Positions 2,325-33,679 of a stretch of DNA of 44,591 nucleotides are shown here, one piece after another. A program made the translations under genes and the position numbers. Numbering within the stretch: the first letter of the stretch is position 1; every line of letters begins with the position of its first letter. Location: NCBI GenBank assembly GCA_003166865.1, contig PMUP01000046.1, positions 582 to 45,172 of the forward strand, written 5' to 3'. Source of the stretch: Bryobacterales bacterium. GTDB lineage: Bacteria; Acidobacteriota; Terriglobia; Bryobacterales; Bryobacteraceae. Under the pieces are notes generated by a model that saw only the letters and a program-made list of their open reading frames with translations, had not been told where the DNA came from and made no database searches.

Positions 2325-2684
2325 CTACAAGGAACGGATTTCTGCGGGAATACCAATAGCCTGAAACAAACCCCCGACACTGTCAAGGTTGGGCGAGTTC
2401 ACCCGGTCCCGTACCGGCGGGTTGGACGAGCCATTATGGAACACAGCGCGGTAGCGATCGCGATAGCCGGCAAGGAACTCGCGCACCAACTGCCAGTCTG
2501 TGCGCGATGCCGAGGACCTGTGGGCGTCGCCGGTGGAGTCGCCATACACGTCCACTTGTACAGGCGCATGGGAGCGACGAAACCACGGCTCAGCCCGTTT
2601 GAGGAACTCTTCGCACGCCGCCCCGGTGTTGGAATCGGGAAGCACGATTTCATCGAGGACATTCACCCACTCGCCGTAAACGGC
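2325..2684 (-). pseudogene. Phage terminase large subunit, C-terminal nuclease fragment
   Basis: The open frame begins right after a stop codon near 2687, so any start (for example the GTG at 2666) is internal to a former gene. The translation contains VYGEWVNVLDEIVLPDSNT, then VDVYGDSTGD, SASRTDWQLVREF and SSNPPVRDRVN. Their order is typical of the RNase H-like nuclease part of phage-related terminases (COG5362 type). The N-terminal ATPase domain is absent and no other phage genes follow, so this is a prophage relic. Identification rests on motif recall and is probable rather than certain. It sits 15 bp upstream of the ABC exporter gene and may have displaced its original promoter. Confidence 0.6.
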
Positions 2685-4763: not shown

Positions 4764-5123
4764 TCACCACGCATCGGGGTCAGGGGCCCGGGTTGGGATG
4801 CGTGGGAGCATCTCTTCCCGGGTGGCTGCGTTGTAGGCAAACCACGCTTCGATCATGGAACTCTGCATCACATCGGCCTTCTGCACTCGGTCATAGGTGT
4901 CCGAGTTGGAGTGGTGGGTACGGGTACCGTACTCCAACCCATCCTGCTGGAAACCAATGCCGTTCAGGCCAATCCACGAAAAGGCGGACGAGTCCGTCCC
5001 ACCAGGGCTCGCGGTGGGTCTGAACTGATCCCCGCCAGAAACAGCAACGATATGCTGGTCCTTGATGGGCTCAATCCAGGACTTGAAGATGGCCGCCATC
5101 TGCGGACTACCCCCTGCCGACAC
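4764..5123 (-). pseudogene. M28-family metallopeptidase, C-terminal fragment
   Basis: The last ~120 residues of a secreted zinc aminopeptidase/carboxypeptidase of the M28 family. The conserved C-terminal block is visible as GGTDSSAFSWIG (a metal-ligand region), then 'LEYGTRTHHSNSDTYDRVQ' with the His-His pair, and a terminal helix 'NAATREEMLPR'. A stop codon lies a few codons upstream of the GTG at 5123. The signal peptide, the protease-associated region and the first metal ligands are missing, so the protein cannot be active. The truncation point is just upstream of the recombinase cassette, so insertion of that cassette may have destroyed the gene; the other half is not present downstream. 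Confidence 0.75.
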
Positions 5124-5423
5124 TCCGCGGAAGCGGCCGGAGTCTTATAAACGCACTATCTCACCATTCAATCGACCACAGGGACAGGGAATGGGGTGTT
5201 ACCCAGACACGAGCACTGGGTCCCCAGCGAGTCGGGATTTCTGTCCGTCTGGGGAGAGTTTTTACCCCCTCTATATATAAGGAAGCCGATGGGTAAATAG
5301 CCGGCCTGTTTCGGCGGGTTTTGAAGGGGTTCCCGCGAGTGTCGGTGCGATCCTAAGCGCTTTGTTCCGTGTGGTTTAAAGCCACGCGTTAGGGCCGCGC
5401 GCGCTGCCTCAGAACATCGTCTC
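5124..5423. other. Intergenic, left flank of the recombinase cassette
   Basis: No convincing coding frame. The stretch holds the AT-rich run 'ctctatatataagg' near 5269 in an otherwise GC-rich region, which could serve a promoter for the cassette. The left boundary of the cassette must lie here or at the M28 truncation, but no flanking direct repeat could be recognised by eye. Confidence 0.4.
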
Positions 5424-5750
5424 ATGGACAGGAATAAACGGCCTGAAGGTACACGCAAAGTACATCAAAGTACACCCAAAGTACCACCAAGTGCGGCGAA
5501 AGTACCGCAAATGCAACATTTACGGGCAACCGGGCAATTGGACTCGTTCTCCACAGTACCGCTGCCTTTCGAGATCCTGGCCTGGCCTAATTCAGAATGC
5601 GAAAAGGCCGTCCTGAGCGACTTGCATTCCGGGCCCCGGGGAGCGTCCATGGAACTGTGGTTTAGAGCCGCAGAAAGAATAGCCAAAACATGGACATGGC
5701 CTTGGTTCAGACGATGGAGGAGTTGCGCCGTCTTCCGGTCCCGGCGTTGA
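5424..5750 (+). CDS. Hypothetical cassette protein with KV-P heptad repeats
   Basis: A 108-aa frame starting MDRNKRPEGTRKV. Its N-terminal third contains three copies of a 7-residue unit (TRKVHQS, TPKVPPS, AAKVPQM) that coincide with the phased DNA repeat described separately. The middle, from about residue 45 ('PLPFEILAWPNSECEKAV' and 'MELWFRAAERIAKTW'), looks like a genuine globular sequence. The last ~20 codons overlap the DUF2924 gene, and the tail there looks like an out-of-frame reading. There is no clear Shine-Dalgarno sequence before the ATG. It is not a family I can name; its position at the head of the DUF2924-recombinase cassette suggests an accessory role. It may not be translated if the repeats are a DNA site only. 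Confidence 0.45.
   Translation: MDRNKRPEGTRKVHQSTPKVPPSAAKVPQMQHLRATGQLDSFSTVPLPFEILAWPNSECEKAVLSDLHSGPRGASMELWFRAAERIAKTWTWPWFRRWRSCAVFRSRR
5446..5515 (+). repeat. Seven heptamers (AAAGTAC) phased at 10.5 bp
   Basis: Direct repeats of AAAGTAC start at 5457, 5467, 5478 and 5499, with degenerate copies AAGGTAC at 5446, CAAGTGC at 5488 and AAATGCA at 5509. The intervals run 11, 10, 11, 10, 11, 10, which is exactly one helical turn each, so all units face the same side of the DNA. This is the geometry of a cooperative protein-binding array, such as a recombinase accessory site, iteron-like site or operator. It lies about 180 bp upstream of the DUF2924 gene. Confidence 0.75.
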
Positions 5751-6190
5751 AGAGAAAGTATCAGGAGGTTTTCGGTGAAGAGACCAAGTCGTCTCACAAA
5801 CAATATCTGTTCCGGCGTATCGCTTGGCAACTGCAGGCGCAAATGGAGGGCGGGCTGAGCGAACGTGCCGTTGACCGAGCCGTCCAGATCGCCGATGACT
5901 CAGACTTACGCAGTAGCGGGCCGAAAGGATTCTGGAGCTGGCCGCAACAGGCCCAGAAGATACAACCCCGGCCGCATTCTGGAACTCACCGGGATGGACG
6001 GCTGCCGAAACCGGGCACGCGGCTGACCCGACGCCACAAGGGACGCGACATAGTAGTCCAGGTGCTCGAGGAAGGCTTCGAGTATCAGTCGCGACATTAC
6101 GGTTCGCTGAGCGCCATCGCTCTGGTAGCAACTGGAACCCGCTGGAACGGCCTGTTGTTCTTCGGACTCACGGAGCGCCGTCGTGGGTGA
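5690..6190 (+). CDS. DUF2924 domain protein
   Basis: A 166-aa soluble protein whose C-terminal part, with LPKPGTRLTRRHKGRDIVV and 'VATGTRWNGLLFFGL', is characteristic of DUF2924. The N-terminal helical segment ('FGEETKSSHKQYLFRRIAWQLQ') is the other conserved block. DUF2924 genes are commonly found directly upstream of serine recombinases; no biochemical function is established as far as I know. Here the gene overlaps the recombinase start by 8 bp (GTGGGTGA), which implies translational coupling and a joint role in excision, integration or its control. The start could be the ATG at 5690 or the one at 5714 (MEELRRLPV); neither has a strong Shine-Dalgarno sequence. Confidence 0.85.
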   Translation: MDMALVQTMEELRRLPVPALKRKYQEVFGEETKSSHKQYLFRRIAWQLQAQMEGGLSERAVDRAVQIADDSDLRSSGPKGFWSWPQQAQKIQPRPHSGTHRDGRLPKPGTRLTRRHKGRDIVVQVLEEGFEYQSRHYGSLSAIALVATGTRWNGLLFFGLTERRRG

Positions 6191-7850
6191 ACATCAGCTC
6201 GAAGCGCCACGGCGCGTGCGTTGCGCCATCTATACTCGCAAGTCGACCGAGGAAGGTTTAGAACAGGCCTTCAATTCGCTCGATGCGCAGCGCGAGGCAG
6301 CCGTTGCCTACATCCAGAGCCAGAAGCACGTGGGGTGGACTTTGGTCGAGACGCGCTTTGATGACGGTGGTTTCAGCGGCGGCAACATGGAGCGTCCCGC
6401 GTTGCAGCAACTGCTGGAACAGATCGAAGCCCGCCAGGTGGATTGCGTACTGGTTTACAAGGTCGACTGGCTGAGCCGCTCGCTCCTGGATTTCGCCCGA
6501 TTGATGGACCGCTTCGATCAGCGCTCGGTCAGTTTCGTATCGGTGACCCAGCAGTTCAACACCACGACGTCACTCGGACGGCTGACGCTCAACATTCTTT
6601 TGTCCTTCGCGCAGTTTGAAAGAGAAATTATCAGCGAGCGCACGCGCGACAAGATGGGTGCCGCGCGGCGGAAAGGCAAATGGGTGGGAGGCACGCCCTT
6701 GTTGGGGTACGACGTCGCTCCGGCAGGCGGAAGTCTGGTAGTCAACCCAAGTGAAGCCCGCCGCGTTTGTGAGATCTTCGAACTTTACCGTAGCCATCGC
6801 TCGCTGGCTGAAGTGGTCGCCGAGCTATCCCAACGCGGCTGGATCACCAAGTCATGGAAGTCGCGAAGTAACGTCCGCCACACGGGACACCCGTTCACGA
6901 AGGCTTCTTTACGGATGCTGCTCTCCAACGCCACATACTGCGGCAAGGTGAACTATCGCGACGTGGTTTACCAAGGCGAGCACAAAGCCGTCATCGAACC
7001 GGCGCTTTGGGACGACATCAATAAGGACTTCTCCAACCGCCCCAAAGCACCCGAGTCTCCCAACATTCCGGTTCCGCAGAATGCCGCGCTGTCCGGTTTG
7101 CTGATTTGCAAACAATGCGGGCATCCGATGATTGCGACCTATTCGACTCGGAGCCAGCGACGCTACCGTTATTACGTATGCCAGACCGCGCGCGAGAAGG
7201 GCTGGAAGTTCTGCCAGACCAAGTCGGTCTCGGCAGACCTGCTGGAAGCCTCGATCGCGATCCAGCTTCGCTCCCAGCTAAGCGCCGCCCAAACACGCCA
7301 AGTTTTCAAGGTTTCAGACTCCCAATGGCAAGCCCTAGTCCGGGCGGATGCGGATGTTATTCCAGGAGTTATTCAGAGCTTGATCGAGCGCATTGACTAC
7401 GACGGGCCGACTGGTGCGGTGGCAGTGACCCTGCGTGCTCCTGTGAACTTCCCCATCGAAGGTCACCCGGTGGCGTTCGAATACAAGATTCCACGAAGGC
7501 GCGGACGCGCGCTCCCGGCCTTCCGGCTCCGCCCCGCAAGCGAAACACTCACGCGGCCGCCGCGCCTGGCGCGCCTGCTGGCGCTTGCCCACAAGCTCGA
7601 TGGCGTGGTTCGTACCGGCCAAGTAAAAGACTATGCCGAACTGGCGCGCTTGGCACATATTTCTTCGGCCCGCGTCGGCCAGATTGTCGTTCTCGGGCTG
7701 CTCGCACCCGCCATTCAGGAACACATCTTGTTTCTGCCAGCCGAGCAGGCCGGGCTTCTTGGTGAGCGCGAGTTGCGCCAGATTGCACGCGAACCCCGCT
7801 GGGACCTCCAACGCGCCCGCTTCGACGAATTGCTGGCTGCCCGCGACTGA
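6183..7850 (+). CDS. Large serine recombinase (resolvase/invertase superfamily)
   Basis: A 555-aa site-specific recombinase that cuts and rejoins DNA through a serine nucleophile. The resolvase domain (about residues 12-155) opens with AIYTRKSTEEGLEQAFNSL; Ser21 in YTRKS is the expected catalytic serine, and 'LSFAQFEREIISERTRDK' marks the end of the domain. A Recombinase domain follows at about 165-285. A zinc ribbon at about 310-345 carries two CxxC-type cysteine pairs (CKQCG, then CQTAREKGWKFCQ). The C-terminal ~190 residues, with 'LIERIDYDGPTGAV', are typical of the group found with DUF2924. The GTG start overlaps the DUF2924 stop. The gene appears intact, and two decayed relatives of its C-terminal part lie at 14.3 and 18.0 kb. 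Confidence 0.95.
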   Translation: MGEHQLEAPRRVRCAIYTRKSTEEGLEQAFNSLDAQREAAVAYIQSQKHVGWTLVETRFDDGGFSGGNMERPALQQLLEQIEARQVDCVLVYKVDWLSRSLLDFARLMDRFDQRSVSFVSVTQQFNTTTSLGRLTLNILLSFAQFEREIISERTRDKMGAARRKGKWVGGTPLLGYDVAPAGGSLVVNPSEARRVCEIFELYRSHRSLAEVVAELSQRGWITKSWKSRSNVRHTGHPFTKASLRMLLSNATYCGKVNYRDVVYQGEHKAVIEPALWDDINKDFSNRPKAPESPNIPVPQNAALSGLLICKQCGHPMIATYSTRSQRRYRYYVCQTAREKGWKFCQTKSVSADLLEASIAIQLRSQLSAAQTRQVFKVSDSQWQALVRADADVIPGVIQSLIERIDYDGPTGAVAVTLRAPVNFPIEGHPVAFEYKIPRRRGRALPAFRLRPASETLTRPPRLARLLALAHKLDGVVRTGQVKDYAELARLAHISSARVGQIVVLGLLAPAIQEHILFLPAEQAGLLGERELRQIAREPRWDLQRARFDELLAARD

Positions 7851-7975
7851 TTTGCAAGGCATCGCCGTTTCTTCACGGAGGTCTCGAAACCCGGCCAGTA
7901 TTGCCTTGCAATGTAGAGGAACGTTGAGTGATGAATGTCATGACCGCGGCAGCTTGCCGCCAAAGGAAAACACAC

Positions 7976-8305
7976 ATGACACCCACGAACAAATCCGCTG
8001 CCGCCCCACCGGCGATGGCCAACACCCACCCAGCTCGCGCCCCTAAGCGCACACCGGCGGACACGCCAGCCCGCCCGACCAAGAAGGCCGCTACACCCGA
8101 GCGTGGGACCAAGACGGCCAAGGTCCTTGCCCTTCTGAAGCGCCCTGGCGGCGCTTCACTTGACCAACTGCGCAAAGCCACCGGGTGGCAGGCTCACTCG
8201 GTTCGTGGCTTCTTGAGCGGCACGCTCAAAAAGAAGATGGGCTTGCGCATCGCGTCCAACAAACTAGAGGGCGGCCAGCGCACCTATCGCATCATCTCCA
8301 AGTAA
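7976..8305 (+). CDS. DUF3489 domain protein
   Basis: A 109-aa basic protein. The ATG at 7976 is preferred over an in-frame ATG at 7928 because AAGGAA stands about 7 bases before it. The first ~45 residues are a low-complexity Thr/Ala/Pro/Lys tail. The rest, 'TKTAKVLALLKRPGGAS', 'LDQLRKATGWQAHSVRGFLSG' split by no gap, then KKKMGLRIAS and the end 'GGQRTYRIISK', has the DUF3489 pattern, which looks like a small winged-helix DNA-binding fold. DUF3489 proteins recur next to DUF2924 and serine recombinases, so it probably acts with them as a DNA-binding accessory or regulator; this is inference. It ends just before a hairpin terminator. Confidence 0.85.
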   Translation: MTPTNKSAAAPPAMANTHPARAPKRTPADTPARPTKKAATPERGTKTAKVLALLKRPGGASLDQLRKATGWQAHSVRGFLSGTLKKKMGLRIASNKLEGGQRTYRIISK

Positions 8306-14309: not shown

Positions 14310-14483
14310 TCACATTTGGAGGCCGGATGCGGGTCTTGCGCCTCCGCGCCTGCTTGGAATCCTGTATTCGAAGGCCAAAGCATGACGGTTGATGGGCGAG
14401 TTCTCAGGAGTTCGCAGCGTCACGGCCACCGTTCCGCTCGGCCCGTCGTAATCAATCCGCTCGATCAAGGCCTGAATGAAGTG
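14310..14483 (-). pseudogene. Serine recombinase remnant (C-terminal piece)
   Basis: The minus-strand translation FIQALIERIDYDGPSGTVAV continues to 'LAFEYRIPSRRGGARP'. It matches residues ~400-445 of the intact recombinase at 6183-7850 ('VIQSLIERIDYDGPTGAVAV', 'VAFEYKIPRRRGRALP'), and the DNA itself is also clearly similar. Only this short piece remains, flanked by unrelated sequence. It shows that another copy of the same recombinase group once lay here. Confidence 0.8.
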
Positions 14484-17986: not shown

Positions 17987-18131
17987 AACGCCTTTAAGGT
18001 TTCAGATTCCCAGTGGCAGGCCTTGGTAGTGGCAGACGCCTAAATCACTCCGGGAATCGTTCAAGCGTTGATTGAACAGATTCACTACGACGGACCGAGT
18101 GGCGCGGTAGCCATAAAACTGCGCGCCTTAA
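17987..18131 (+). pseudogene. Serine recombinase remnant, second copy
   Basis: Translation NAFKVSDSQWQALVVADA, a stop codon, then ITPGIVQALIEQIHYDGPSG and 'AVAIKLRA'. It parallels residues ~375-420 of the intact recombinase ('VFKVSDSQWQALVRADADV', 'IPGVIQSLIERIDYDGPTG'). The in-frame TAA at about 18041 and the loss of both flanks show it is dead. It is in the same orientation as the intact copy and opposite to the piece at 14.3 kb. Confidence 0.8.
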
Positions 18132-24475: not shown

Positions 24476-25657
24476 GTGCCCGAACTAGCGATCCCCTACC
24501 GCGTGGAAACTGCTCTCGAGCGTGGAATCGAGGGACGCGGCCTGGCGCGCGAAGACGCGCTTCGCTTGTTAGAGGAAGGCCCGCTCGAGGCGTTGCTCAC
24601 GACTGCGGCGGCTGTCCGGGATCGTTCTAAGGGCGATTCGGTTAGCTATTCCAGGAAAGTCTTTATTCCGTTGACCCACCTTTGCCGCGACTATTGCGGC
24701 TATTGCACTTTCCGCGCTGACCCGCAAGCCGGCGTGCAACCCTACATGCTGCCGGACGAAGTTCTCGCTGTGGCCGAAGCGGGCCGCAAAGCGGGATGCA
24801 AAGAGGCTTTGTTCAGCCTGGGGGACCAGCCTGAGCGAATCTTCCCGGAGGCCAAGGAGTTTCTGAAGAAGCTGGGCTTTGGCCGCACGCTCGAATACCT
24901 GGCGGCGATGAGCGAGCTGGTTCTCGAGACCACCGGTCTGTTACCGCATTCCAATCCCGGTGTGATGAACGGGGAGGATCTTCGCCGCCTGCGCGAGACC
25001 AACGTTAGCGTGGGGTTGATGCTCGAAAGCGCCAGTCCGCGGCTGCTGCGGGTTGGCGGCGCGCACTGGAAGGCGCCGGATAAAGTGCCGTCTCTGCGCA
25101 TTCGAACCATCGAGAACGCGGGCCAGTTGTCAATGGCTTTCACTACCGGCGTTCTGATCGGAATCGGCGAAACTCCGGAAGAGCGCGTGGACGCGCTGCT
25201 GGCAATTCGTGCTGCCCACGGGAAGTACGGCCATGTCCAAGAAGTAATCGTGCAACCCTTCCGCGCCAAGCCGGATATACGCATGGCCCAGGCGCCGGAG
25301 CCTTCCACCGAGGACCTGGAGCGCACCATCGCGGTGGCCCGATTGATTTTCGGCGGGGAGATGAATATTCAGTCTCCGCCCAATTTGCTGTCCGAAGACT
25401 ACCCCGATTTGCTGCGGGCCGGTATCAACGATTGGGGCGGAATTTCTCCCGTAACCAAGGACTTCATTAATCCAGAGGCCGCTTGGCCGCAAATCTCTTC
25501 ACTGGCGGCCCGCTCAGCCGGCGTGGGATTCATGCTGCGCGAGCGGCTGGCGATTTATCCGGAATTCGGTTCGAGGCCGGAATTCGTGAGCGCCCGCCTG
25601 CAACCGCACCTGCGGAAACTTCAATCCGAAAATGGCTATGCTCGCGAGGGAGTGTGA
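24476..25657 (+). CDS. cofG: 7,8-didemethyl-8-hydroxy-5-deazariboflavin synthase, CofG subunit
   Basis: A 393-aa radical SAM enzyme. With CofH it builds Fo, the deazaflavin chromophore of coenzyme F420, from a tyrosine-derived radical adduct and the diaminouracil precursor. The [4Fe-4S] motif is C-x3-C-x2-C at Cys70, Cys74 and Cys77 (THLCRDYCGYCTFR). Further CofG blocks are 'KEALFSLGDQPE', 'HSNPGVMNGEDLRRLRETN', 'GILIGIGETPEERVD' in variant form, and 'SPPNLLSEDYPDLLRAGIND'. The GTG at 24476 (MPELAIPYRVETAL) is the start; no strong ribosome site is seen. cofH follows after 3 bp, so they form one unit, as opposed to the fused FbiC of actinobacteria. Confidence 0.95.
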   Translation: MPELAIPYRVETALERGIEGRGLAREDALRLLEEGPLEALLTTAAAVRDRSKGDSVSYSRKVFIPLTHLCRDYCGYCTFRADPQAGVQPYMLPDEVLAVAEAGRKAGCKEALFSLGDQPERIFPEAKEFLKKLGFGRTLEYLAAMSELVLETTGLLPHSNPGVMNGEDLRRLRETNVSVGLMLESASPRLLRVGGAHWKAPDKVPSLRIRTIENAGQLSMAFTTGVLIGIGETPEERVDALLAIRAAHGKYGHVQEVIVQPFRAKPDIRMAQAPEPSTEDLERTIAVARLIFGGEMNIQSPPNLLSEDYPDLLRAGINDWGGISPVTKDFINPEAAWPQISSLAARSAGVGFMLRERLAIYPEFGSRPEFVSARLQPHLRKLQSENGYAREGV

Positions 25658-25660
25658 AAC

Positions 25661-26914
25661 ATGCTGAAACCGGCAAGTCTTGAATGGCGGGAGATTCCCT
25701 GGGAGCGGGCCCTTCGAGCCGCACGTCCCGAGGTCTCAGATGCTTTGGAGAAGGCGCTGGCCGGGATCGATCTCGGAATGGAGGAGGGCCTGATCTTGGC
25801 CAAGGCCGAAGGGGACGACCTTTTGGCGCTGGTCAGGGTTGCGGACGAGATTCGACGGCGTGTCGTCGGGGATCGCATCACATACGTGGTGAACAGAAAT
25901 TTGAACTTCACGAACGTGTGCATTGTGGGCTGTGCTTTTTGCGGGTTCGGTCGAGGGGCGGACTCACCGGACGCTTATTTTCACTCGACCGATACCCTGG
26001 TGGCCAAATCGGCCGAAGCAGTGGCACTCGGCGCCACTGAGGTGTGCATCCAAGGCGGCCTCCCAAAAGATCTCGACGGGTATTACTACGTCCAACTTTT
26101 GCGCGCGATCAAGGCCAGCTTGCCCCAGCTTCACGTGCACGCCTACTCTCCCATGGAGATTACCTACGGTGTTGAAAAAACGCGCCTGCCGCTTCGGGAG
26201 TACCTGCTGATGTTGAAAGAAGCGGGCTTGGGTAGTATTCCAGGAACGGCGGCGGAAATTCTCGATGATAGTGTCCGCAAATCTTTGAGTCCCAACAAGC
26301 TCAAAGTGCGGCAGTGGATCGAAGTGGTTCGCACCGCTCATAGCCTCGGCATCCCCACGACATCGACCATGATGTACGGCCATATCGAGCTTCCGGAACA
26401 TTGGGTCAGGCATCTGCTTCTGCTGCGCGAGATTCAGAAGGAGACTCGCGGATTTACCGAGTTCGTTCCCTTGGGATTCATCCATTCCCAAACCAAGCTC
26501 TTTAAGAGGGGAGACGCCCGGCCTGGTCGTTCGGTCCACGAGGATCTGATCGTGCATGCTCTCTCGCGGGTTCTGCTGAATGGCTACATCGGCAACATTC
26601 AAGTCTCTTGGGTCAAGCTTGGGTTTGAAGAATCCCTGGCCTGTCTGGAAGCGGGAGCCAACGATTTCGGCGGCACTTTGATGGAAGAGAGTATCTCCAA
26701 AGCGGCCGGCGCGAATTTCGGCGAGTACGTCTCTCCCGGTGAGTTTCGCGCCCTGATCCGAACGATCGGGCGCATTCCCGCGGAGCGCGCCACGTCCTAT
26801 CAAATTCGCAAAGTCTTCGAACACGCGGACGCAGAGGAGCGCCTGCCAGCCGATCCGATACCAATCTTTGCTCCCGCAGCGAACCACGCGACGATGCCCT
26901 CAATGGGCTATTGA
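25661..26914 (+). CDS. cofH: 5-amino-6-(D-ribitylamino)uracil-L-tyrosine 4-hydroxyphenyl transferase, CofH subunit
   Basis: A 417-aa radical SAM partner of CofG. It attaches the hydroxybenzyl part of tyrosine to 5-amino-6-ribitylaminouracil in Fo synthesis. The cluster motif C-x3-C-x2-C occupies Cys87, Cys91 and Cys94 (NVCIVGCAFCGF). Other family blocks are 'VCIQGGLPKDLDGYYYVQLL', 'HVHAYSPMEITYG', 'GLGSIPGTAAEILDDSVR' and 'GANDFGGTLMEESIS'. MqnC/MqnE-type menaquinone enzymes are relatives, but the direct pairing with cofG and the nearby cofC/D/E make CofH secure. The ATG is 3 bp after the cofG stop. Two hairpins follow the stop. Confidence 0.95.
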   Translation: MLKPASLEWREIPWERALRAARPEVSDALEKALAGIDLGMEEGLILAKAEGDDLLALVRVADEIRRRVVGDRITYVVNRNLNFTNVCIVGCAFCGFGRGADSPDAYFHSTDTLVAKSAEAVALGATEVCIQGGLPKDLDGYYYVQLLRAIKASLPQLHVHAYSPMEITYGVEKTRLPLREYLLMLKEAGLGSIPGTAAEILDDSVRKSLSPNKLKVRQWIEVVRTAHSLGIPTTSTMMYGHIELPEHWVRHLLLLREIQKETRGFTEFVPLGFIHSQTKLFKRGDARPGRSVHEDLIVHALSRVLLNGYIGNIQVSWVKLGFEESLACLEAGANDFGGTLMEESISKAAGANFGEYVSPGEFRALIRTIGRIPAERATSYQIRKVFEHADAEERLPADPIPIFAPAANHATMPSMGY

Positions 26915-26916
26915 CC

Positions 26917-26959
26917 GCGCAGGGGTTCTGCGCAAACTCAAGCCGATCTTGAGATCGGC
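26917..26959. terminator. Two hairpins between cofH and the converging PPOX gene
   Basis: Hairpin 1: GCGCAG (26917-26922), loop GGGTT, CTGCGC (26928-26933). Hairpin 2: GCCGATCT (26942-26949), TG, AGATCGGC (26952-26959); the very short loop would open a pair or two in RNA. They occupy almost the whole 51-bp gap between two converging genes and probably end transcription in both directions. There is no T tract. Confidence 0.6.
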
Positions 26960-26965
26960 ACGGGA

Positions 26966-27361
26966 TCAGCCCATCGAATAGATGTGCTCGGGTTCGATTT
27001 TATAGAGCACGCGCACCTCGCCGGGCCCGCGATGCGCATATTTATCTTGTCCGGTGTACTTCTTGGCGAGCTTGTCGATATGCTCGTCAGCGCCTTTTTC
27101 GGTGATCTCCACCACGCGTCCGCGAATCGAAAGGTGGCGATACGGATTATCGGGATCGAGGATGTCGAGGCCAACGCGCGGGTCACGCCGGATGTTCTTG
27201 TCTTTCACTCGCCCCTTGGCGGAATTGATCAGAATGTTCTTGCCATCGTACTCGAACCAGACAGGCGCTACATGCGGGCTGCCGTCCGGCATCAGAGTGG
27301 CCAATTGAGCAAACGCCTTCTTTTGGGTCAAGTCGATGTAGTTTTCAGGAAGTGCTGCCAC
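26966..27361 (-). CDS. PPOX-class F420-dependent split-barrel protein (Rv1155-like)
   Basis: A 131-aa protein of the pyridoxamine-5'-phosphate-oxidase-like split-barrel fold. Strands include 'KAFAQLATLMPDGSPHVAPV', 'FEYDGKNILINSAKGRVKDK' and 'NIRRDPRVGLDILDPDNPYR', then 'LSIRGRVVEIT' and the end 'EVRVLYKIEPEHIYSMG'. This is the F420-binding subgroup (TIGR03618 type, as in Rv1155) rather than FMN-dependent PdxH. Members bind F420 and some reduce substrates with it. The GTG start has AGGAAGAGGAG upstream. It diverges from npdG with 72 bp between them, so both promoters share that gap, and it sits inside the F420 locus. Confidence 0.88.
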   Translation of the reverse strand: MAALPENYIDLTQKKAFAQLATLMPDGSPHVAPVWFEYDGKNILINSAKGRVKDKNIRRDPRVGLDILDPDNPYRHLSIRGRVVEITEKGADEHIDKLAKKYTGQDKYAHRGPGEVRVLYKIEPEHIYSMG

Positions 27362-27433
27362 GGTGGTCTCCTCTTCCTTTCGAGGTTAGCATCAAGCGCG
27401 AGGTGTGTGGCACGGGTTATTTTAAGAGTACTG

Positions 27434-28084
27434 ATGCAAACAATCGTCGCAGTGGTAGGCGGCACTGGAGCGGAGGGCAGCGGACTGGCGCTTCGTCTTG
27501 CTCAGGCCGGCGCGCGTGTGCGGATTGGGTCGCGCAACTTGGAAAGGGCGCAAGAAACGGCGACGCGGATCGGCGCGGAAACCACCGGCCATACGAACGT
27601 GGATGCAGTTACGGAAGCGGCCATCGTGGTTCTAACAGTTCCGCTATCGGCGCAAGTGGAAACACTCAAATCGATTCGCGGCAGCTTTGCGCCGGGAGCG
27701 ATCCTTGTGGACACGACGGTTCCCCTCGAGATCGCGATCGGCGGCCGTATTGCCCGCACGCTGACCCTGTGGGATGGATCGGCTGCGCAACAAGCGGCTC
27801 GGCTTGTTCCGGGCGTGCCGGTGGTTGCGGCGTTTCATGCGCTGAGCGCGGAGGCACTGGCGAATCTCGATCATCCGCTCGACTCCGATACCTTGATATG
27901 CGGCGACAGCGCGGAAGCGAAAGCGGCTGTTACGCGAGTCGCTGAGATGATCCCCGGCGTGCGCGCCATCGATGCCGGTCCGTTGGACAATGCGCGACTG
28001 CTCGAAAGCGCAGCGGCTCTGCTTATTTCACTGAACTTGCGCCACAAGGTAAAACAATCCGGCATGAGGATCACTGGATTGTGA
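27434..28084 (+). CDS. npdG: NADPH-dependent F420 reductase
   Basis: A 216-aa Rossmann-fold enzyme (Fno/NpdG) that passes hydride between NADPH and F420, giving F420H2 for the oxidoreductases. The dinucleotide-binding motif is VAVVGGTGAEGSGLALRLAQ near the N-terminus, followed by 'RIGSRNLERAQETA' (with the Ser-Arg pair that favours NADPH), 'VVLTVPLSAQVETLKSI', 'LVDTTVPLE' and the end 'LLISLNLRHKVKQSGMRIT'. The frame is open upstream; the ATG at 27434 is chosen because it begins the binding strand. Its stop overlaps the cofD start in GTGA. It heads the npdG-cofD-cofC-cofE operon. Confidence 0.93.
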   Translation: MQTIVAVVGGTGAEGSGLALRLAQAGARVRIGSRNLERAQETATRIGAETTGHTNVDAVTEAAIVVLTVPLSAQVETLKSIRGSFAPGAILVDTTVPLEIAIGGRIARTLTLWDGSAAQQAARLVPGVPVVAAFHALSAEALANLDHPLDSDTLICGDSAEAKAAVTRVAEMIPGVRAIDAGPLDNARLLESAAALLISLNLRHKVKQSGMRITGL

Positions 28085-29037
28085 AGCCAAGTTCCGTAGT
28101 AGCTCTCGCCGGTGGTGTGGGTGCTGCGCGTTTCCTGGATGGATTAACACGAGTGATCGAGCCCGAGCGCATCTTCATCATCGGCAACACCGCCGATGAC
28201 GCTGAGATTCACGGTCTTCACATCTCGCCGGATCTCGATACCGTCACCTATACGCTGGCCGGCTTGTCGAACCCGCAGCACGGTTGGGGCATTCGCGGCG
28301 ACAGCTTCCGATGTCTGGAGGCGCTCGGACGGCTAGGCGCCGACACCTGGTTTCAACTCGGCGATCTGGATCTGGCCACTCACCTGTATCGGACCGAGCG
28401 TCTGCGTCAAGGCGCCAGTCTCGCCGAGGCCACATCCGAGATCACTGCCGCGCTCAAAGTTCGTTCCCGGCTTGTTCCCATGTCGAATGAGCGCGTGCGC
28501 ACGCGCATTTGCACTCCGTCGGGCGAGTTGGAGTTTCAAACCTACTTCGTGAAGCGCCGTGCGCGCGATCGAGTCACTGCCATTCATTTCGAAGGGGCAT
28601 CCGAGGCCGCGCCCGCACCCGGATTGTTAGACGCGATCGCCCAGGCAGAGGCAATTATCCTCTGTCCGTCGAATCCGTTTATCAGCATAGGCCCCATTCT
28701 CGCGATCCCTGGCATCCGCACGGCGTTGCAACGCAAGCGCGACAAGGTGGCCGCTATTTCGCCTATTGTGGGTGGCCGCGCACTGAAAGGTCCCGCCGCA
28801 AAGATGATGAAGAGTATGCAACTTCGATCTTCGGCCGCCGAAGTTGCGAAGCTCTACCTGGATTTCACCAACATCTTTGTCCTCGACGAACTTGATCGCA
28901 AGCAAGCCGCCCAAGTGGAAGCGTTCGGCATGCGGCCAGTGGTCACCAACACCATCATGCGTGGGCTGCGCGAAAGAAAGTCGCTGGCGCGAGTGGTTGC
29001 TCGCGAACTGGGGATCAAACTGGAGACTCGAGCTTGA
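28081..29037 (+). CDS. cofD: 2-phospho-L-lactate (or phosphoenolpyruvate) transferase, CofD/FbiA
   Basis: A 318-aa enzyme that moves the phospholactyl, phosphoenolpyruvyl or related group from the GDP-activated precursor onto Fo, giving F420-0 or its dehydro form. Family landmarks: 'ALAGGVGAARFLDGLTRVI', 'IIGNTADDAEIHGLHISPDL', 'LAGLSNPQHGWGIRGDSF', 'WFQLGDLDLATHLYRTERL' and 'ILCPSNPFISIGPILAIPGI', then 'ISPIVGGRALKGPAAKMM'. The length is normal. It starts with GTG, coupled to npdG by a 4-bp overlap, and ends in TTGA overlapping the TTG start of cofC. Which three-carbon acid is used cannot be told from the sequence by eye. Confidence 0.95.
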   Translation: MKPSSVVALAGGVGAARFLDGLTRVIEPERIFIIGNTADDAEIHGLHISPDLDTVTYTLAGLSNPQHGWGIRGDSFRCLEALGRLGADTWFQLGDLDLATHLYRTERLRQGASLAEATSEITAALKVRSRLVPMSNERVRTRICTPSGELEFQTYFVKRRARDRVTAIHFEGASEAAPAPGLLDAIAQAEAIILCPSNPFISIGPILAIPGIRTALQRKRDKVAAISPIVGGRALKGPAAKMMKSMQLRSSAAEVAKLYLDFTNIFVLDELDRKQAAQVEAFGMRPVVTNTIMRGLRERKSLARVVARELGIKLETRA

Positions 29038-29684
29038 TCTTTGCCATCCTGCCCGTCAAGAGCCCGCAAAACGCCAAGCAGCGCTTGACGGGATTTCTTG
29101 CAATTGAGGATCGAGAAGCGCTGGCTCGCATGCTCTATCGGCAAACGTTGGCCGCGCTCTGCCAGGCCCAGGGTATCGACCGCGTGGTGGTCGCCACCAG
29201 CGACGCTGAAGTCGCCGATCACGCTCGTAGCTCAGGGGCGCTGGTCTTTGAAGAAGACAAACAGGTCAGCCACAGCGTTTCCGCCGACGCGGCCTGTTTG
29301 CGCGCAATGGAAATGGGCGCATCAACGGTTCTGTTGGTCCCCATCGATGTCCCCACCGTGACGCCCGCCGATTTCAGCCGGCTCGCCGCTGCATCGAACG
29401 CCGGACTACGCCCCGGTCTCGTGATTGTTCCGTCCTCCGATGGCACCGGCACCAATGCTTTGGTACGCACGCCTCCCAATTGCATCCAGAGCCGCTTTGG
29501 TCCCGGCAGCTTCCGCGCGCATCTCGATCAGGCGCGCTCCAAGGGCTTGGATGCGGATGTGCTCCGCCTTCCCGGGCTGATGTTTGACATCGACACGCCA
29601 GAAGATGTGGCCGAACTCCTGGCCCGTTCACATGAGTGTCAAGTTTCGTCCTTCCTGCGGGCCGCATGCGCGTCGAAATCGTAG
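29034..29684 (+). CDS. cofC: 2-phospho-L-lactate/PEP guanylyltransferase, CofC/FbiD
   Basis: A 216-aa nucleotidyltransferase that activates the three-carbon phosphoacid with GTP for CofD. The N-terminal signature 'FAILPVKSPQNAKQRLTGFL' resembles the CofC/MobA-like fold, followed by 'RVVVATSDAEVADHARSSGA', 'VLLVPIDVPTVTPADFSRLA' and 'IVPSSDGTGTNALVRTPPN', with the end 'MFDIDTPEDVAELLARS'. It begins with TTG overlapping the cofD stop, and its last ~6 codons overlap the start chosen for cofE. Specificity for 2-phospholactate, PEP or 3-phosphoglycerate varies across known CofC enzymes. Confidence 0.92.
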   Translation: MIFAILPVKSPQNAKQRLTGFLAIEDREALARMLYRQTLAALCQAQGIDRVVVATSDAEVADHARSSGALVFEEDKQVSHSVSADAACLRAMEMGASTVLLVPIDVPTVTPADFSRLAAASNAGLRPGLVIVPSSDGTGTNALVRTPPNCIQSRFGPGSFRAHLDQARSKGLDADVLRLPGLMFDIDTPEDVAELLARSHECQVSSFLRAACASKS

Positions 29685-30397
29685 CCCTCTCTACGCTGCC
29701 CGAAGTGCGGCCGGGCGATGACCTCGCAGCACTGATCCGTCAGGCCGCGGCCACAGAAGGGCAAACCATGGATCGCTGGGTGGTGCTTGCCGTGGCGCAA
29801 AAGATCGCCTCGAAAGCGGAAGGGGCCGTGGTGGATCTGCGCGAGATTCACCCTTCGGCGCTGGCTCGATCCTGGGCGGCCGAATGGAAGAAGGATGCTC
29901 GCTTGATCGAACTGATCCTTTCTCAATCGCGACGCATCGTCAAAATGGATCGCGGTGTAATAATCGCCGAGACGCGGCATGGTCTGGTCTGCGCCAACGC
30001 GGGTGTCGATCAATCGAACGTCGAGGGCGATTTCGCGACCGTTCTGCCCAATGATCCGGATGCCTCGGCGCGCCGTCTGCTCGCCAGCCTGGGGTGCGGT
30101 GCGGTGATCATCACCGATACCTTCGGAAGGCCGTGGAGGGAAGGGCTGGTGGATGTTGCCATTGGCGTCGCGGGTCTCGACCCCTTGGACGATCATCGCG
30201 GACGCACGGACCGTCACGGTCGGAAGCTCGCCAGCACCATCATCGCCGTGGCGGACCAGCTGGCTGCAGCCGCTGGACTCCTGATGCCCAAGCCCGCCGG
30301 ATGTCCGGTCGTGCTAATTCGTGGCTTCGATTGGCAGCCCGCCGAAGGCTCAGCCCGCTCGCTCCTCCGCAAACCTGAGCAAGATCTATTTCGCTAG
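29666..30397 (+). CDS. cofE: Coenzyme F420-0:L-glutamate ligase, CofE
   Basis: A 243-aa ligase that adds the glutamate tail to F420-0 using GTP. The frame is open from 29636, but the ATG at 29666 (MRVEIVALSTLPEVRPGDDL) gives the family start and a 19-bp overlap with cofC. Conserved blocks: 'WVVLAVAQKIASKAEGAVVD', 'VKMDRGVIIAETRHGLVCAN', 'AGVDQSNVEG', 'AVIITDTFGRPWREG' and 'DVAIGVAGLDPLDDHRGRTD'. It stops after the ligase domain and lacks the FMN-binding nitroreductase domain fused in actinobacterial FbiB. Its 3' end overlaps the converging luciferase-like gene by 12 bp. Confidence 0.95.
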   Translation: MRVEIVALSTLPEVRPGDDLAALIRQAAATEGQTMDRWVVLAVAQKIASKAEGAVVDLREIHPSALARSWAAEWKKDARLIELILSQSRRIVKMDRGVIIAETRHGLVCANAGVDQSNVEGDFATVLPNDPDASARRLLASLGCGAVIITDTFGRPWREGLVDVAIGVAGLDPLDDHRGRTDRHGRKLASTIIAVADQLAAAAGLLMPKPAGCPVVLIRGFDWQPAEGSARSLLRKPEQDLFR

Positions 30398-31285
30398 CGC
30401 CCCGGACGCCATTTCTCGCCATTCTCGCCATGGCAACTCTTTCGGATTCGAGGTCAGCACCTGAATACAAACGTGATCCGCGCCAGCCGAGTGATGCTCG
30501 CGAATTCGATTGCGGATCGCGCTCAGATCACCCCACGCAATGATCGCGTCAATGAGCCGATTGCTTCCGCCATCTTTGAAATCGCTTTCGTCAAAGCCGA
30601 GCCGCAGAAGATTGTTGGCGTAGTTCGGCAGCGACAGATAAAAACCAAGGAACGCTCGTCCGACGCCCCGGGCTTTCTGGGGATCGGACTCCAGCACCAC
30701 CGCTTGCTCCGGACATAGATAAGGTTGCGGCCCCAATATCCCGCGCGCCTGTGCCGTATGTTCCGGATTTGTATTGTAGGGATGTGCGCCGTCTGCGAGT
30801 TGACCGGAAAGTTCCAGCATCTTCGGACCCAGCGCCGCGAGAACACGCGCCGGTTTTGTCGGAGGAGGAACGGAGTTGTACGGAGCCTGATCCATGGCTT
30901 CCAAATAAGCGCGCATGGTGGCCACCGGCTTCTCATAACGATGCCCCCGCAACTGTTCCACCAACGGAATGTGGCTCACGCCGAGGCCGAGCAAGAATCG
31001 ATTGGGATACGCCTCGGCGAGCGTCTTCTGCCCGGCTGCCATCGCGACCGCATCGCGCGCGTAGATGTTTGCGATACCGGTGGCGATGACAATTCGCTTC
31101 GTGGCGGACAGCAAGAGGCCCGCGTTGGTGAGGGCTTCACGCCCAACCGCTTCGCCGAACCAGAGAGCGCCGTAACCGAGCTCTTCCAGCTCGTGAGCGG
31201 TCTCCTGCGCTTTTGCGGCGGGTTGATCTTCCAGTTGCCGCGTCCAGATTCCGATAGGACCAAGTTGTATCGATGATTGCGCCAT
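30386..31285 (-). CDS. Luciferase-like F420-dependent oxidoreductase (TIGR03620 type)
   Basis: A 299-aa TIM-barrel enzyme of the bacterial luciferase-like superfamily, F420 branch. The pattern 'GPIGIWTRQLEDQPAAKAQE', 'LGYGALWFGEAVGREALTNA', 'RIVIATGIANIYARDAVAMA' and 'NRFLLGLGVSHIPLVEQLRG' matches TIGR03620-type proteins, with 'LGPKMLELSGQLADGAHPY' later. It would transfer hydride from F420H2 to an unknown substrate. The ATG at 31285 (MAQSSIQLG) is preferred over one at 31330, because it follows the stop of the upstream gene by 4 bp. It is the last gene of a four-gene minus-strand operon. Confidence 0.92.
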   Translation of the reverse strand: MAQSSIQLGPIGIWTRQLEDQPAAKAQETAHELEELGYGALWFGEAVGREALTNAGLLLSATKRIVIATGIANIYARDAVAMAAGQKTLAEAYPNRFLLGLGVSHIPLVEQLRGHRYEKPVATMRAYLEAMDQAPYNSVPPPTKPARVLAALGPKMLELSGQLADGAHPYNTNPEHTAQARGILGPQPYLCPEQAVVLESDPQKARGVGRAFLGFYLSLPNYANNLLRLGFDESDFKDGGSNRLIDAIIAWGDLSAIRNRIREHHSAGADHVCIQVLTSNPKELPWREWREMASGALAK

Positions 31286-31289
31286 GTTT

Positions 31290-31730
31290 TCACTTGATCC
31301 AAGGATAGCGGCCAGTGTCCTTGCCCGCATAGTCCGGGTCCAGATAAATAAAGCAGCGCTGAATCAGCCCGTCGCGAATCTCGAATACATCGCACCATCG
31401 GCCCGCGCCCCAATCCGGGTTGCCGGCGCGCCATGGCCCATCCACATGTTCGCCGTGGCTGGTCCCCTCGCACACGATGGTGTCACCGCCGGAGAATATC
31501 CAGTTCAGACCGGAATAGTGGTGAGTGATTGATTTGAGTGTACTGCCTAGGTCGGCGAACAGCTTCTCGATTTGCTCCCTTCCCTTAGCCACACCCCACT
31601 TCGGGAAGTATACCTGGGCGTCCTGCGCGAACAGATCGAAAATCGACCCGCCGGATGAGGTCACGCCACCGTTGTCCAGCGCCTTGAGATATTCAAGCGC
31701 GACCGACTTACGTTGTTCGTCATTGTACAT
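31290..31730 (-). CDS. NTF2-like (SnoaL-type) protein
   Basis: A 146-aa small cytosolic protein with the NTF2/SnoaL pattern: 'SVALEYLKALDNGG', 'IFDLFAQDAQVYFPKWGVAK', 'GGDTIVCEGTSHGEHVDGPW', 'AGRWCDVFEIRDGLIQRCFI' and a C-terminal 'YLDPDYAGKDTGRYPW'. The last block is typical of this group. It may be an isomerase-like enzyme or a substrate-binding partner. It is embedded between two F420-dependent enzyme genes with 2 and 4 bp gaps, so it probably takes part in the same transformation. No catalytic residue can be assigned with confidence. Confidence 0.85.
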   Translation of the reverse strand: MYNDEQRKSVALEYLKALDNGGVTSSGGSIFDLFAQDAQVYFPKWGVAKGREQIEKLFADLGSTLKSITHHYSGLNWIFSGGDTIVCEGTSHGEHVDGPWRAGNPDWGAGRWCDVFEIRDGLIQRCFIYLDPDYAGKDTGRYPWIK

Positions 31731-31732
31731 AA

Positions 31733-32161
31733 TTAGATTTTGCCCCAGGATGTGATCCGCTCCGGAGTGATTCGGATGATCGGTGCGTCATCAGCGAGCA
31801 TTCCTCGGTCATATTGCGGGTATTTTGCTCTTAACTTGCGAATCGCCCAGGCATGCTCCTTGTGCGCCGACTTCGGAATCAGTTTTGCTTTTCCACGTAT
31901 CAAGATGTACCAGAGCTGTGTCCAGTCCTCGTCGTATTCGTCAATCAAAAGCGCCACGCGGGGTACTGCCCGGATGTTTCGCACACGTGCGAGTCGTTCT
32001 GGCGTAGAACGCTTCGGTTTTTGGTCTACCGCTGTGTAGAAACGTGCGCCGTCATAAGCAAAGCAGATCGGTACGATGTGTGGCCGATTCTTGTCATCCA
32101 AGGTCGCAAGCCTCGCAACCCTGGCCTTCTTTAGTATTTTCTGAACCGCGCCGGAAATCAC
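31733..32161 (-). CDS. PPOX-class F420-dependent protein (Rv0121-like, TIGR03668 type)
   Basis: A 142-aa split-barrel protein: 'ILKKARVARLATLDDKNRPH', 'IVPICFAYDGARFYTAVDQK' and 'RLARVRNIRAVPRVALLIDE', 'WYILIRGKAKLIP', and the C-terminal 'PIIRITPERITSWGK'. This order fits the Rv0121 subgroup of F420-associated PNPOx-like proteins. It is distinct in sequence from the other PPOX protein at 26966. The GTG start overlaps the stop of the upstream luciferase-like gene in GTGA, so translation is coupled. It probably binds F420 and may reduce a small molecule; substrate unknown. Confidence 0.88.
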   Translation of the reverse strand: MISGAVQKILKKARVARLATLDDKNRPHIVPICFAYDGARFYTAVDQKPKRSTPERLARVRNIRAVPRVALLIDEYDEDWTQLWYILIRGKAKLIPKSAHKEHAWAIRKLRAKYPQYDRGMLADDAPIIRITPERITSWGKI

Positions 32162-32994
32162 GCTGCCAATGGCGCGTACTTGTCGAGCACGCCCAGAATT
32201 TCGTCACGAGTCGAGTCAGGAATCGCCAGTAGCGCACGTTCGATACCAAGCTCCCGGTATTCGGCCAGAACCGTCTGGTCGGCCGGCGCCCCGAACACGC
32301 TGATTGACAGCGTCGAGAAATCCCGCCCGGCCGCCGATGCCGCCTGACGCAGCCGCGCCACCGCTTCTTTAGGGTTGAAGCCCGGCCTGGCGATGGGCAA
32401 CCAGCCGTCGCAAAATTCGACGACGCGCTTCAAGGTATGGTCGCTATCGCCGCCGAGAAGTATCGGAGGGTGGGGCCGTTGCGCGGGCTTAGGGTAAAGC
32501 CAGACTGGATCGAAGTTCACCATTTCTCCGTGGAAAGCTGCCTCCTCCTGGGTCCATAGGGCCTTCATAGCCAGAATTCGTTCGCGCATCAACTTGAAGC
32601 GCGTTTCGTAGCGCGCGCCGTGATTCTCCATTTCATCGACATTCCAGCCGCCGCCAATACCGAAAAGGAACCGCCCGTTCGACAACTGATCCAGACTGGC
32701 CACGCACTTCGCCGTCACGATCGGATCGCGCTGCGGGATAAGGCAAATGCCGGTGCCGAGCAAGATTTTCGTTGTTGCAGCAGCAGCAAACGACAGCGCA
32801 ACGAACGGGTCGTGCGTATGAGAATAAGCTTTGGGCAGTTCTCCGCCGCCGGGAAATGGGGTGCGGCGAGACTTTGGAATGTGCGTGTGCTCCGGCAGGA
32901 GCAACGAATCGAAGCCGCGCTCCTCAGCCGCGAGCGCCAGTTCGCGGATGTCGATGCCGTAGTCCGTTGGAAAATAGAAAACACCAACACGCAT
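32158..32994 (-). CDS. Luciferase-like F420-dependent oxidoreductase (TIGR03619 type)
   Basis: A 278-aa TIM-barrel enzyme: 'RVGVFYFPTDYGIDIRELAL', 'AEERGFDSLLLPEHTHIP', 'LLGTGICLIPQRDPIVTAK', 'LSNGRFLFGIGGGWNVDEME' and 'HPPILLGGDSDHTLKRVVEF'. The combination marks the TIGR03619 F420-dependent group. The frame is open to 33618, but the ATG at 32994 has AGGAGAA about 8 bases upstream and starts the first barrel strand. It leads the operon with the PPOX, NTF2-like and second luciferase-like genes. The substrate is unknown. Confidence 0.93.
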   Translation of the reverse strand: MRVGVFYFPTDYGIDIRELALAAEERGFDSLLLPEHTHIPKSRRTPFPGGGELPKAYSHTHDPFVALSFAAAATTKILLGTGICLIPQRDPIVTAKCVASLDQLSNGRFLFGIGGGWNVDEMENHGARYETRFKLMRERILAMKALWTQEEAAFHGEMVNFDPVWLYPKPAQRPHPPILLGGDSDHTLKRVVEFCDGWLPIARPGFNPKEAVARLRQAASAAGRDFSTLSISVFGAPADQTVLAEYRELGIERALLAIPDSTRDEILGVLDKYAPLAA

Positions 32995-33248
32995 TGTGAG
33001 TTCTCCTGTGCACAAACGTTCAGAGCTTAGAAAACGTCTTCTATGAAACTCAAATTGGCGCCGCAATCGACGCCGGCACCGCATGATTGGCGAGCGCCCC
33101 GCAACCCACATGATCGCACGTTGGTTGTTGCAGGAAGGCTGTCGCATCTCTCCCGATATGCTTTGGATCGCGTATGAATCCGGCCGTAATGAGATCGAGG
33201 GAGCGGCCCAATTCTTCGAGAGAGCTGGCTCCGAGGAGTGGAGGCTCG
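32995..33248. other. Upstream region of the F420-enzyme operon
   Basis: This 254-bp stretch must hold the promoter of the minus-strand operon starting at 32994, but no -35/-10 pair could be fixed by eye. An 84-aa plus-strand frame (33083-33337) has a protein-like start, MIGERPATHMIARW, but no ribosome site and no recognised family, and it runs into the DUF6152 relic on the other strand. Confidence 0.3.
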
Positions 33249-33679
33249 CTATTCCCTCTTCTGGCTCGTCGCCGTATCCTGTGGTCCGCCATCGCCCGCG
33301 GATCCTCCGGACACGCTCCAGCCGTCGGGCAATGTGACACGCCGTGCATCGATTAGGTGCGAGCCGTCCTTGGCAAGATAGCCGTCCACCACCAGGGTGT
33401 CTCCCAACTTGATGTCGCCTTTCTTGAACCCGCGCCTGGAAAGAGCGCCGGGTGCGCCAGCTTCGCAGCCCCAGTTGGAGACCTTTCTGCTTTCGTCTTC
33501 CACGTCGAGATAAAAATACGAATGCGGATTGGTCCATTCGATTTTGGTCAGCTTTCCCACGAGTCGCACGGTTTGTGCCCGTCAAATTCGGCGGCGAAGG
33601 AATGATGGGCTTGCACACTCGGCGCGATGGCGACGAGTAGGCCCGCTGCGGCCGCGGCTACGGCAAATCGGCTTTTCAC
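33249..33679 (-). pseudogene. Secreted DUF6152-like protein with one frameshift
   Basis: The GTG at 33679 (with GGGAGAA upstream) begins a signal peptide KSRFAVAAAAAGLLVAIAPS ending 'VQAHHSFAAEFDGHKP'. The frame then breaks at about 33567. One additional G there would join it to 'VRLVGKLTKIEWTNPHSYFY', 'LDVEDESRKVSNWGCEAGAP', 'GALSRRGFKKGDIKLGDT' and the C-terminal 'KDGSHLIDARRVTLPDG'. This is the DUF6152-like secreted family common in acidobacteria. Either the gene is a young pseudogene or there is a one-base sequencing deletion. It precedes the chimeric quinoprotein gene in genome order but lies downstream of it in transcription. Confidence 0.8.

Follow-up and report, generated by a model that had tools for sequence, protein, structure and literature searches.

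A lineage-specific, putative protein-binding array in the leader of a DUF2924-recombinase cassette

Introduction

What does a row of similar heptamers, set out at close to one turn of the helix, do in front of a recombinase gene? The question is raised by a stretch of 44,591 nucleotides from a Bryobacterales bacterium (contig PMUP01000046.1), referred to here as the window, in which AAAGTAC-like units precede a phage-like cassette encoding a DUF2924 protein, a large serine recombinase (LSR) and a DUF3489 protein. Helix-phased arrays of direct repeats are a well-known kind of element. A preliminary description of this one took its phasing as a sign of selection at the DNA level and proposed a binding site for the recombinase or the DUF protein, or an operator. 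In this study we have examined whether the array stands out from chance, how it compares with its closest relative, how widely it is shared, and which explanation accounts for it best.

Results

The features discussed below are given in window coordinates, and all of them lie on the forward strand.

5218..5689, + strand: leader common to the window and the viral contig L120, holding the AT-rich motif, the array and the conserved block
5271..5282, + strand: AT-rich motif CTATATATAAGG, in the leader, 163 bp before the array
5446..5515, + strand: AAAGTAC-like heptamer array, 7 units, conserved at 2260-2329 of L120
5618..5664, + strand: conserved block CTTGMT-N~14-GAGCNYTCATGG...GTTAAC, recurrent upstream of DUF2924
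5690..6190, + strand: DUF2924 protein gene (PF11149, E=2.2e-39)
6183..7850, + strand: LSR gene (Resolvase, Recombinase and Zn_ribbon_recom; families PF00239, PF07508 and PF13408), with a C-terminal helical domain that is weakly ParB/Noc-like
7928..8305, + strand: DUF3489 protein gene (PF11994, E=2.1e-27)

The units of the array start at 5446, 5457, 5467, 5478, 5488, 5499 and 5509, that is, at steps of 11, 10, 11, 10, 11 and 10 bp. Units 2, 3, 4 and 6 (5457, 5467, 5478 and 5499) read AAAGTAC exactly (7/7), unit 1 (5446, AAGGTAC) agrees with it at 6/7 positions and unit 5 (5488, CAAGTGC) at 5/7. The last unit (5509, AAATGCA) agrees at 3/7 positions only, and its standing as a true member of the array is doubtful; a further degenerate copy, AAACGGC, lies 10 bp before unit 1 and matches at 4/7 positions in the window and at 5/7 in L120. 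The description of seven units, four of them exact, at alternating steps of 11 and 10 bp is borne out by direct reading of 5400-5700, and Tandem Repeats Finder, run on the stretch that holds the array, called periods of 11 and of 21.

The array as described is real and goes beyond chance. The window contains six copies of AAAGTAC where 1.58 are expected, four of the six being in the array, and a count of at least six was reached in 0/100 shuffles of the window. The longest chain of exact heptamers at 10/11-bp steps, with every heptamer considered and one skipped unit allowed, has four members in the window and never had more than two in 200 dinucleotide shuffles. The further claim that such phasing excludes a coding repeat did not hold: alternating steps of 10 and 11 bp add up to 21, which is divisible by three, and the phasing alone therefore did not exclude coding. 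The seven-residue peptide units that had been noted are present in the frame of ORF 5424-5750.

The array stands at the head of a recombinase cassette. It lies 174 bp before the DUF2924 gene, which stands directly before the LSR gene and overlaps it at 6183-6190, the arrangement by which a DUF2924-LSR cassette is defined here; the DUF3489 gene follows. The same DUF2924-LSR pair, in the same order and with overlapping genes, is found in phage WO of Wolbachia (AB036666, gp30-gp31) and in the Acidithiobacillus phage AcaML1 (Gp4-Gp3), whose recombinases are 34% (over 93% of the query) and 44% (over 65% of the query) identical to that of the window, and no exact AAAGTAC occurs in the stretches of 5.4 kb (phage WO) and 4.5 kb (AcaML1) examined. 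A search of the host genome found a single DUF2924 gene, together with further partial recombinase matches. Nothing resembling a promoter was detected in 5100-5760.

The closest relative found, and the best viral match, is the viral contig L120, whose LSR is 89% identical to that of the window. The homology starts at 5218, with shared DNA at 76% identity over 5218-5527 and at 85% from 5545 onward, and the array and the operon both lie inside this common segment. The array of L120, from 2260, has the same position, orientation and 11/10 alternation and aligns ungapped: there are no indels within it, four short ones before it and one of 65 bp after it, L120 being 65 bp longer between the array and the conserved block. 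Changed sites number 6/49 in the heptamer columns and 6/21 in the array spacers, and the four exact units differ at 1/28 sites. In a set of overlapping contrasts, several of which were tried and whose p values are uncorrected for one another, the heptamers changed less than the leader (46/178 sites in 5218-5254 and 5301-5445; one-sided Fisher p=0.030, or p=0.047 when the AT-rich motif is included) and less than the non-heptamer sites of 5218-5617 without that motif (92/301, p=0.0045), this wider contrast being inflated by the poor alignment of the region after the array; compared with the spacers alone, the difference was not significant (p=0.10). Outside the array, 4/229 overlapping contiguous windows of 49 sites are equally well kept.

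As the phase of the array was preserved in L120 and its reading frame was not, the comparison of these two sequences, a single pair, favours a constraint on the DNA rather than on the reading frame. The proposal of selection at the DNA level is in this respect upheld in part, with the contrast between heptamers and leader, the kept phase and the lost frame on its side, and with one pair and the spacer result (p=0.10) on the other. The array cassette of L120 is directly preceded (1-1143, 1628-2095, 1900-2043) by another recombinase-like ORF and by a ParB-like gene that is cut off, with an imperfect (87%) direct repeat of 60 bp.

The distribution of the array was assessed in DUF2924 upstream regions of at most 1,500 bp, some of them much shorter, which came from viral contigs, from genome contigs and from the genomes of relatives. 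Matches that began beyond residue 30 and upstream stretches shorter than about 60 bp were left out, and 14 of the 178 regions cut were dropped as identical to others in their last 300 bp, leaving 164 distinct regions. The array was called in two of these 164, those of the window and L120, by Tandem Repeats Finder at a score of at least 40, a threshold at which weaker or strongly decayed arrays could be missed. With 162/164 regions showing no such array, cassettes evidently exist without it, and we rejected it as a shared part of DUF2924-LSR cassettes. Since only the window and L120 show it, the array is not a general LSR or DUF2924 binding site, and that part of the preliminary interpretation is not supported: the upstream regions of other cassettes largely gave the outcome that had been named in advance as refuting it. 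Other DUF2924 loci have unrelated tandem repeats, for example of 11 bp (L071) or, further out, of 21 bp (L080). In L121 and L124, whose recombinases are 60% and 66% identical to that of the window, the large-terminase gene ends shortly before DUF2924, and L122 is alike.

A 321-bp stretch over the array had no match in 100 relatives' genomes, and the 501-bp stretch 5200-5700 had no DNA relatives in phage and plasmid collections at E values up to 0.01. The 6.67-Mb host genome has no other exact AAAGTAC pair at the array spacing. Three exact units in a row at steps of 10/11 bp were present in 1/396 genomes searched in the phylum, namely the host itself, and a triple with a looser last gap in 2/200 family genomes, the host and G637. 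The latter, of the same family, carries an intergenic run of AAGTAC/AAAGTAC words at G637:C58:16018-16047 (L249). Loose pairs of AAAGTAC in the host genome, with at most two mismatches and with the array's own pairs counted in, numbered 15 when four bases were left free and 11 when three were, the reversed control giving 15 and 19, respectively; as this is no excess, a host-wide regulator is unlikely, and a host regulon for AAAGTAC was rejected. Twenty viral contigs contain three exact AAAGTAC words spaced 10-11 bp apart, in several of them with the array inside ORFs with QST/KV/KY linkers, and the corresponding controls were 12 and 13 for AAAGTAC at 8-9 and 12-13 bp and 18 for the reversed heptamer, CATGAAA, at 10/11 bp. 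As there is no enrichment over the reversed heptamer (20 vs 18), AAAGTAC arrays were rejected as a special phage motif. A DUF2924-LSR pair was seen in 2/20 of these contigs, within the stretches examined: L210, which is L120 again, and L214, where some 3.5 kb separate the array from the gene. In the literature, AAAGTAC as a word was met only in unrelated papers, and a search for phage iterons returned no paper.

The site that recurs upstream of DUF2924 is the block at 5618-5664, not the heptamer array. The block is 94% identical between the window and L120, and a loose form of it, written after inspection of the upstream regions, is present within 150 bp upstream of DUF2924 in 45/163 regions and in 0/157, 0/153, 0/152 and 0/139 of the four 150-bp bins that follow. 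In the 42 extendable copies, CTTGN is followed by 15 free bp in 39 cases and by 16 in the other three, where 14-20 bp were allowed. The ATG within the block runs straight into a stop codon in several loci and is therefore not a gene start there; an attachment site or a promoter/operator is possible. An attachment site or operator serving these cassettes as a group is better sought in the block. A lone, decayed copy of part of it lies at 1501-1555 of L039 (G000:C27), a contig for which our searches gave no DUF2924 or recombinase match, and this copy could be the scar of a lost element.

Discussion

To judge from its sequence and distribution, the array probably serves a single small lineage as a local site of protein binding. 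The explanation that we rank first, at somewhat less than an even chance, is that of a putative, lineage-specific binding array in the leader of the cassette that most likely works as an operator. The array would be a cis-acting DNA element of one small DUF2924-LSR mobile cassette lineage, with seven-base half-sites in a row on one face of the helix, on which a multimerising DNA-binding protein could sit side by side; its binding would most likely control the DUF2924-LSR operon 174 bp downstream. Binding of a protein to the array, the cooperativity of that binding and the regulation of the operon are what we infer in this model. OmpR/PhoB-type operators have seven-base half-sites and four-base spacers, and the word of the Pho box differs from AAAGTAC. 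Such operators, like the array, consist of direct repeats, theirs being set at 11-bp steps. The Pho box consists of two direct 11-bp repeats (PMC3978041), and the array differs from it in its alternating 10/11 steps, its seven units and the lack of any sign of a host regulon. Should it prove to be a binding site, the array would offer a handle on the control of one cassette lineage.

An inert minisatellite comes close behind the operator reading, and we regard it as a possible, if somewhat doubtful, explanation. Slippage in an ancestor shared by the window element and L120 would have multiplied a 21-bp unit with internal similarity, and the copies would not have decayed as yet. The period of 21 called by Tandem Repeats Finder is consistent with this, as are the exact triples in viral contigs, which are about as common for the reversed heptamer (18) as for AAAGTAC (20) and which AAAGTAC also forms at steps of 8-9 (12) and 12-13 bp (13); the non-significant contrast between heptamers and spacers and the 162/164 cassettes in which the array was not seen point in the same direction. 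Against it, the heptamers are better kept than the leader, and the 11/10 alternation has come through without indels in both copies.

A role as a replication origin, or as a centromere-like partition array, of an excised or ancestral phage element is an unlikely alternative, in which the reader, a Rep, ParR-like or similar protein, would be encoded elsewhere. The array resembles the iteron arrays of R6K, RK2, P1, F and pSC101 in being made of helix-phased direct repeats, with a composite unit of 21 bp in three copies. The helix-phased direct repeats that mark an iteron origin are found here (period 21, half-period 10/11), and at 21 bp the composite unit agrees with the range of 17-22 bp published for iterons (PMC4980987). 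Unlike iteron origins, the array is built from 7-bp half-sites instead of one long iteron, its AT-rich stretch is 163 bp away, and a Pfam scan covering six proteins encoded between 4.7 and 8.9 kb showed no initiator (Rep) gene. With tubC and the type II centromeres (parC of R1 and pSK41, read by ParR) the array has in common a series of tandem repeats, each about a helix turn long, that lies upstream of an operon; one form of type II centromere consists of tandem repeats of about 10 bp (PMC5016525). Unlike those, the array precedes a recombinase operon, and no Rep, ParR, ParM or TubR/TubZ family was found among the window ORFs scanned, those of the cassette included. In L120 a cut-off ParB-like gene, which belongs to a different type of partition system or is the partner of a methylase, stands upstream of the array just before the leader, and the phage contig L207 has a ParB-like methyltransferase gene as well as a terminase gene. 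Both ParB-like genes match PHROGs that bear the name ParB-like partition protein; in the cassette of the window none was found.

The AT-rich motif CTATATATAAGG counts in favour of this same alternative, as a similar motif precedes an array in L120 (CTATATAATAAGG) and in L207, where CCCTATATATAAGGGG is followed by GTACTTT words (GTAC at 5029, 5040, 5051 and 5062), so that motif and array are seen together in the window, L120 and L207. Against an origin stand the distance of the motif from the array and the extent of their co-occurrence: the motif is near 2/21 viral arrays and 0/46 control arrays, which amounts to one independent case (p=0.30), L207 being alone outside the L120 lineage. Scans for the combined pattern gave L207, L218 and one new contig, L246, and a search with the L207 terminase for relatives returned L207 only. 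The L120 counterpart lies inside a strong hairpin (z -5.3), which was rejected as a conserved structure, the values for the window and L207 being z +0.4 and z -0.9. Given this single case, a control module of helix-phased array and AT-rich motif across unrelated soil phages, which would couple replication, partition or copy number to recombinase expression, is kept only as a possibility, and a slim one.

Still less probable than an origin or partition array is a recombination accessory site, bound by the ParB-like C-terminal domain of the LSR or by DUF2924 and steering integration or excision. The array lies near the LSR gene, and the last 130 residues of the LSR (7458-7847) model well (pLDDT 83), with the DNA-binding domains of Noc and Spo0J as best Foldseek matches (best E=0.09, probability 1.00). 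All E-values in that search were above 0.05, and the profile match to ParB (4umk, E=0.0099) stands among equally weak ribosomal matches. Inverted repeats are a constant feature of the partition sites that ParB reads (PMC5016525), whereas the array consists of direct repeats; moreover, relatives of the LSR domain (128 distinct) and of DUF2924 (135) are found in many loci without the array. For these two reasons the ParB-like domain is a weak candidate for the binding protein. The model of DUF2924 was too poor for a structure search (pTM 0.37), no solved structure matched its profile, and the main text of the phage WO paper (PMC9203015) does not name it.

A coding repeat of KVHQSTP-type heptapeptides in a small protein, the 108-residue product of ORF 5424-5750, was rejected and is the least credible account: the ORF is open through the array, as are frames in L120, but its ATG is not kept in L120, the frames beyond the array fall out of step after the 65-bp length difference, codon positions 1, 2 and 3 took four, five and three of the twelve changes in the array, and the product matches no family in Pfam or PHROGs.

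Other traces of mobile elements were noticed. Related recombinase fragments lie at 14338-14477 (- strand) and 17993-18111 (+ strand) of the window and at G000:C107:3647-4027, with 81%, 73% and 91% DNA identity to the intact copy, respectively, and the last of these starts just past a palindrome around two unread bases. The window ORF 2325-2666 (- strand) is 41-49% identical to sequence directly before the DUF2924 cassettes of L121, L122, L124 and L125, its counterparts in L121 and L124 being terminase genes; the window copy is inverted and, by this resemblance, represents the predicted remains of a phage-like element. Further along, 24476-31330 contains coenzyme F420 biosynthesis families (CofH C-terminal, CofD, CofC and F420 ligase), two radical SAM genes and a luciferase-like monooxygenase gene, and another such monooxygenase gene is found at 32158-33618.
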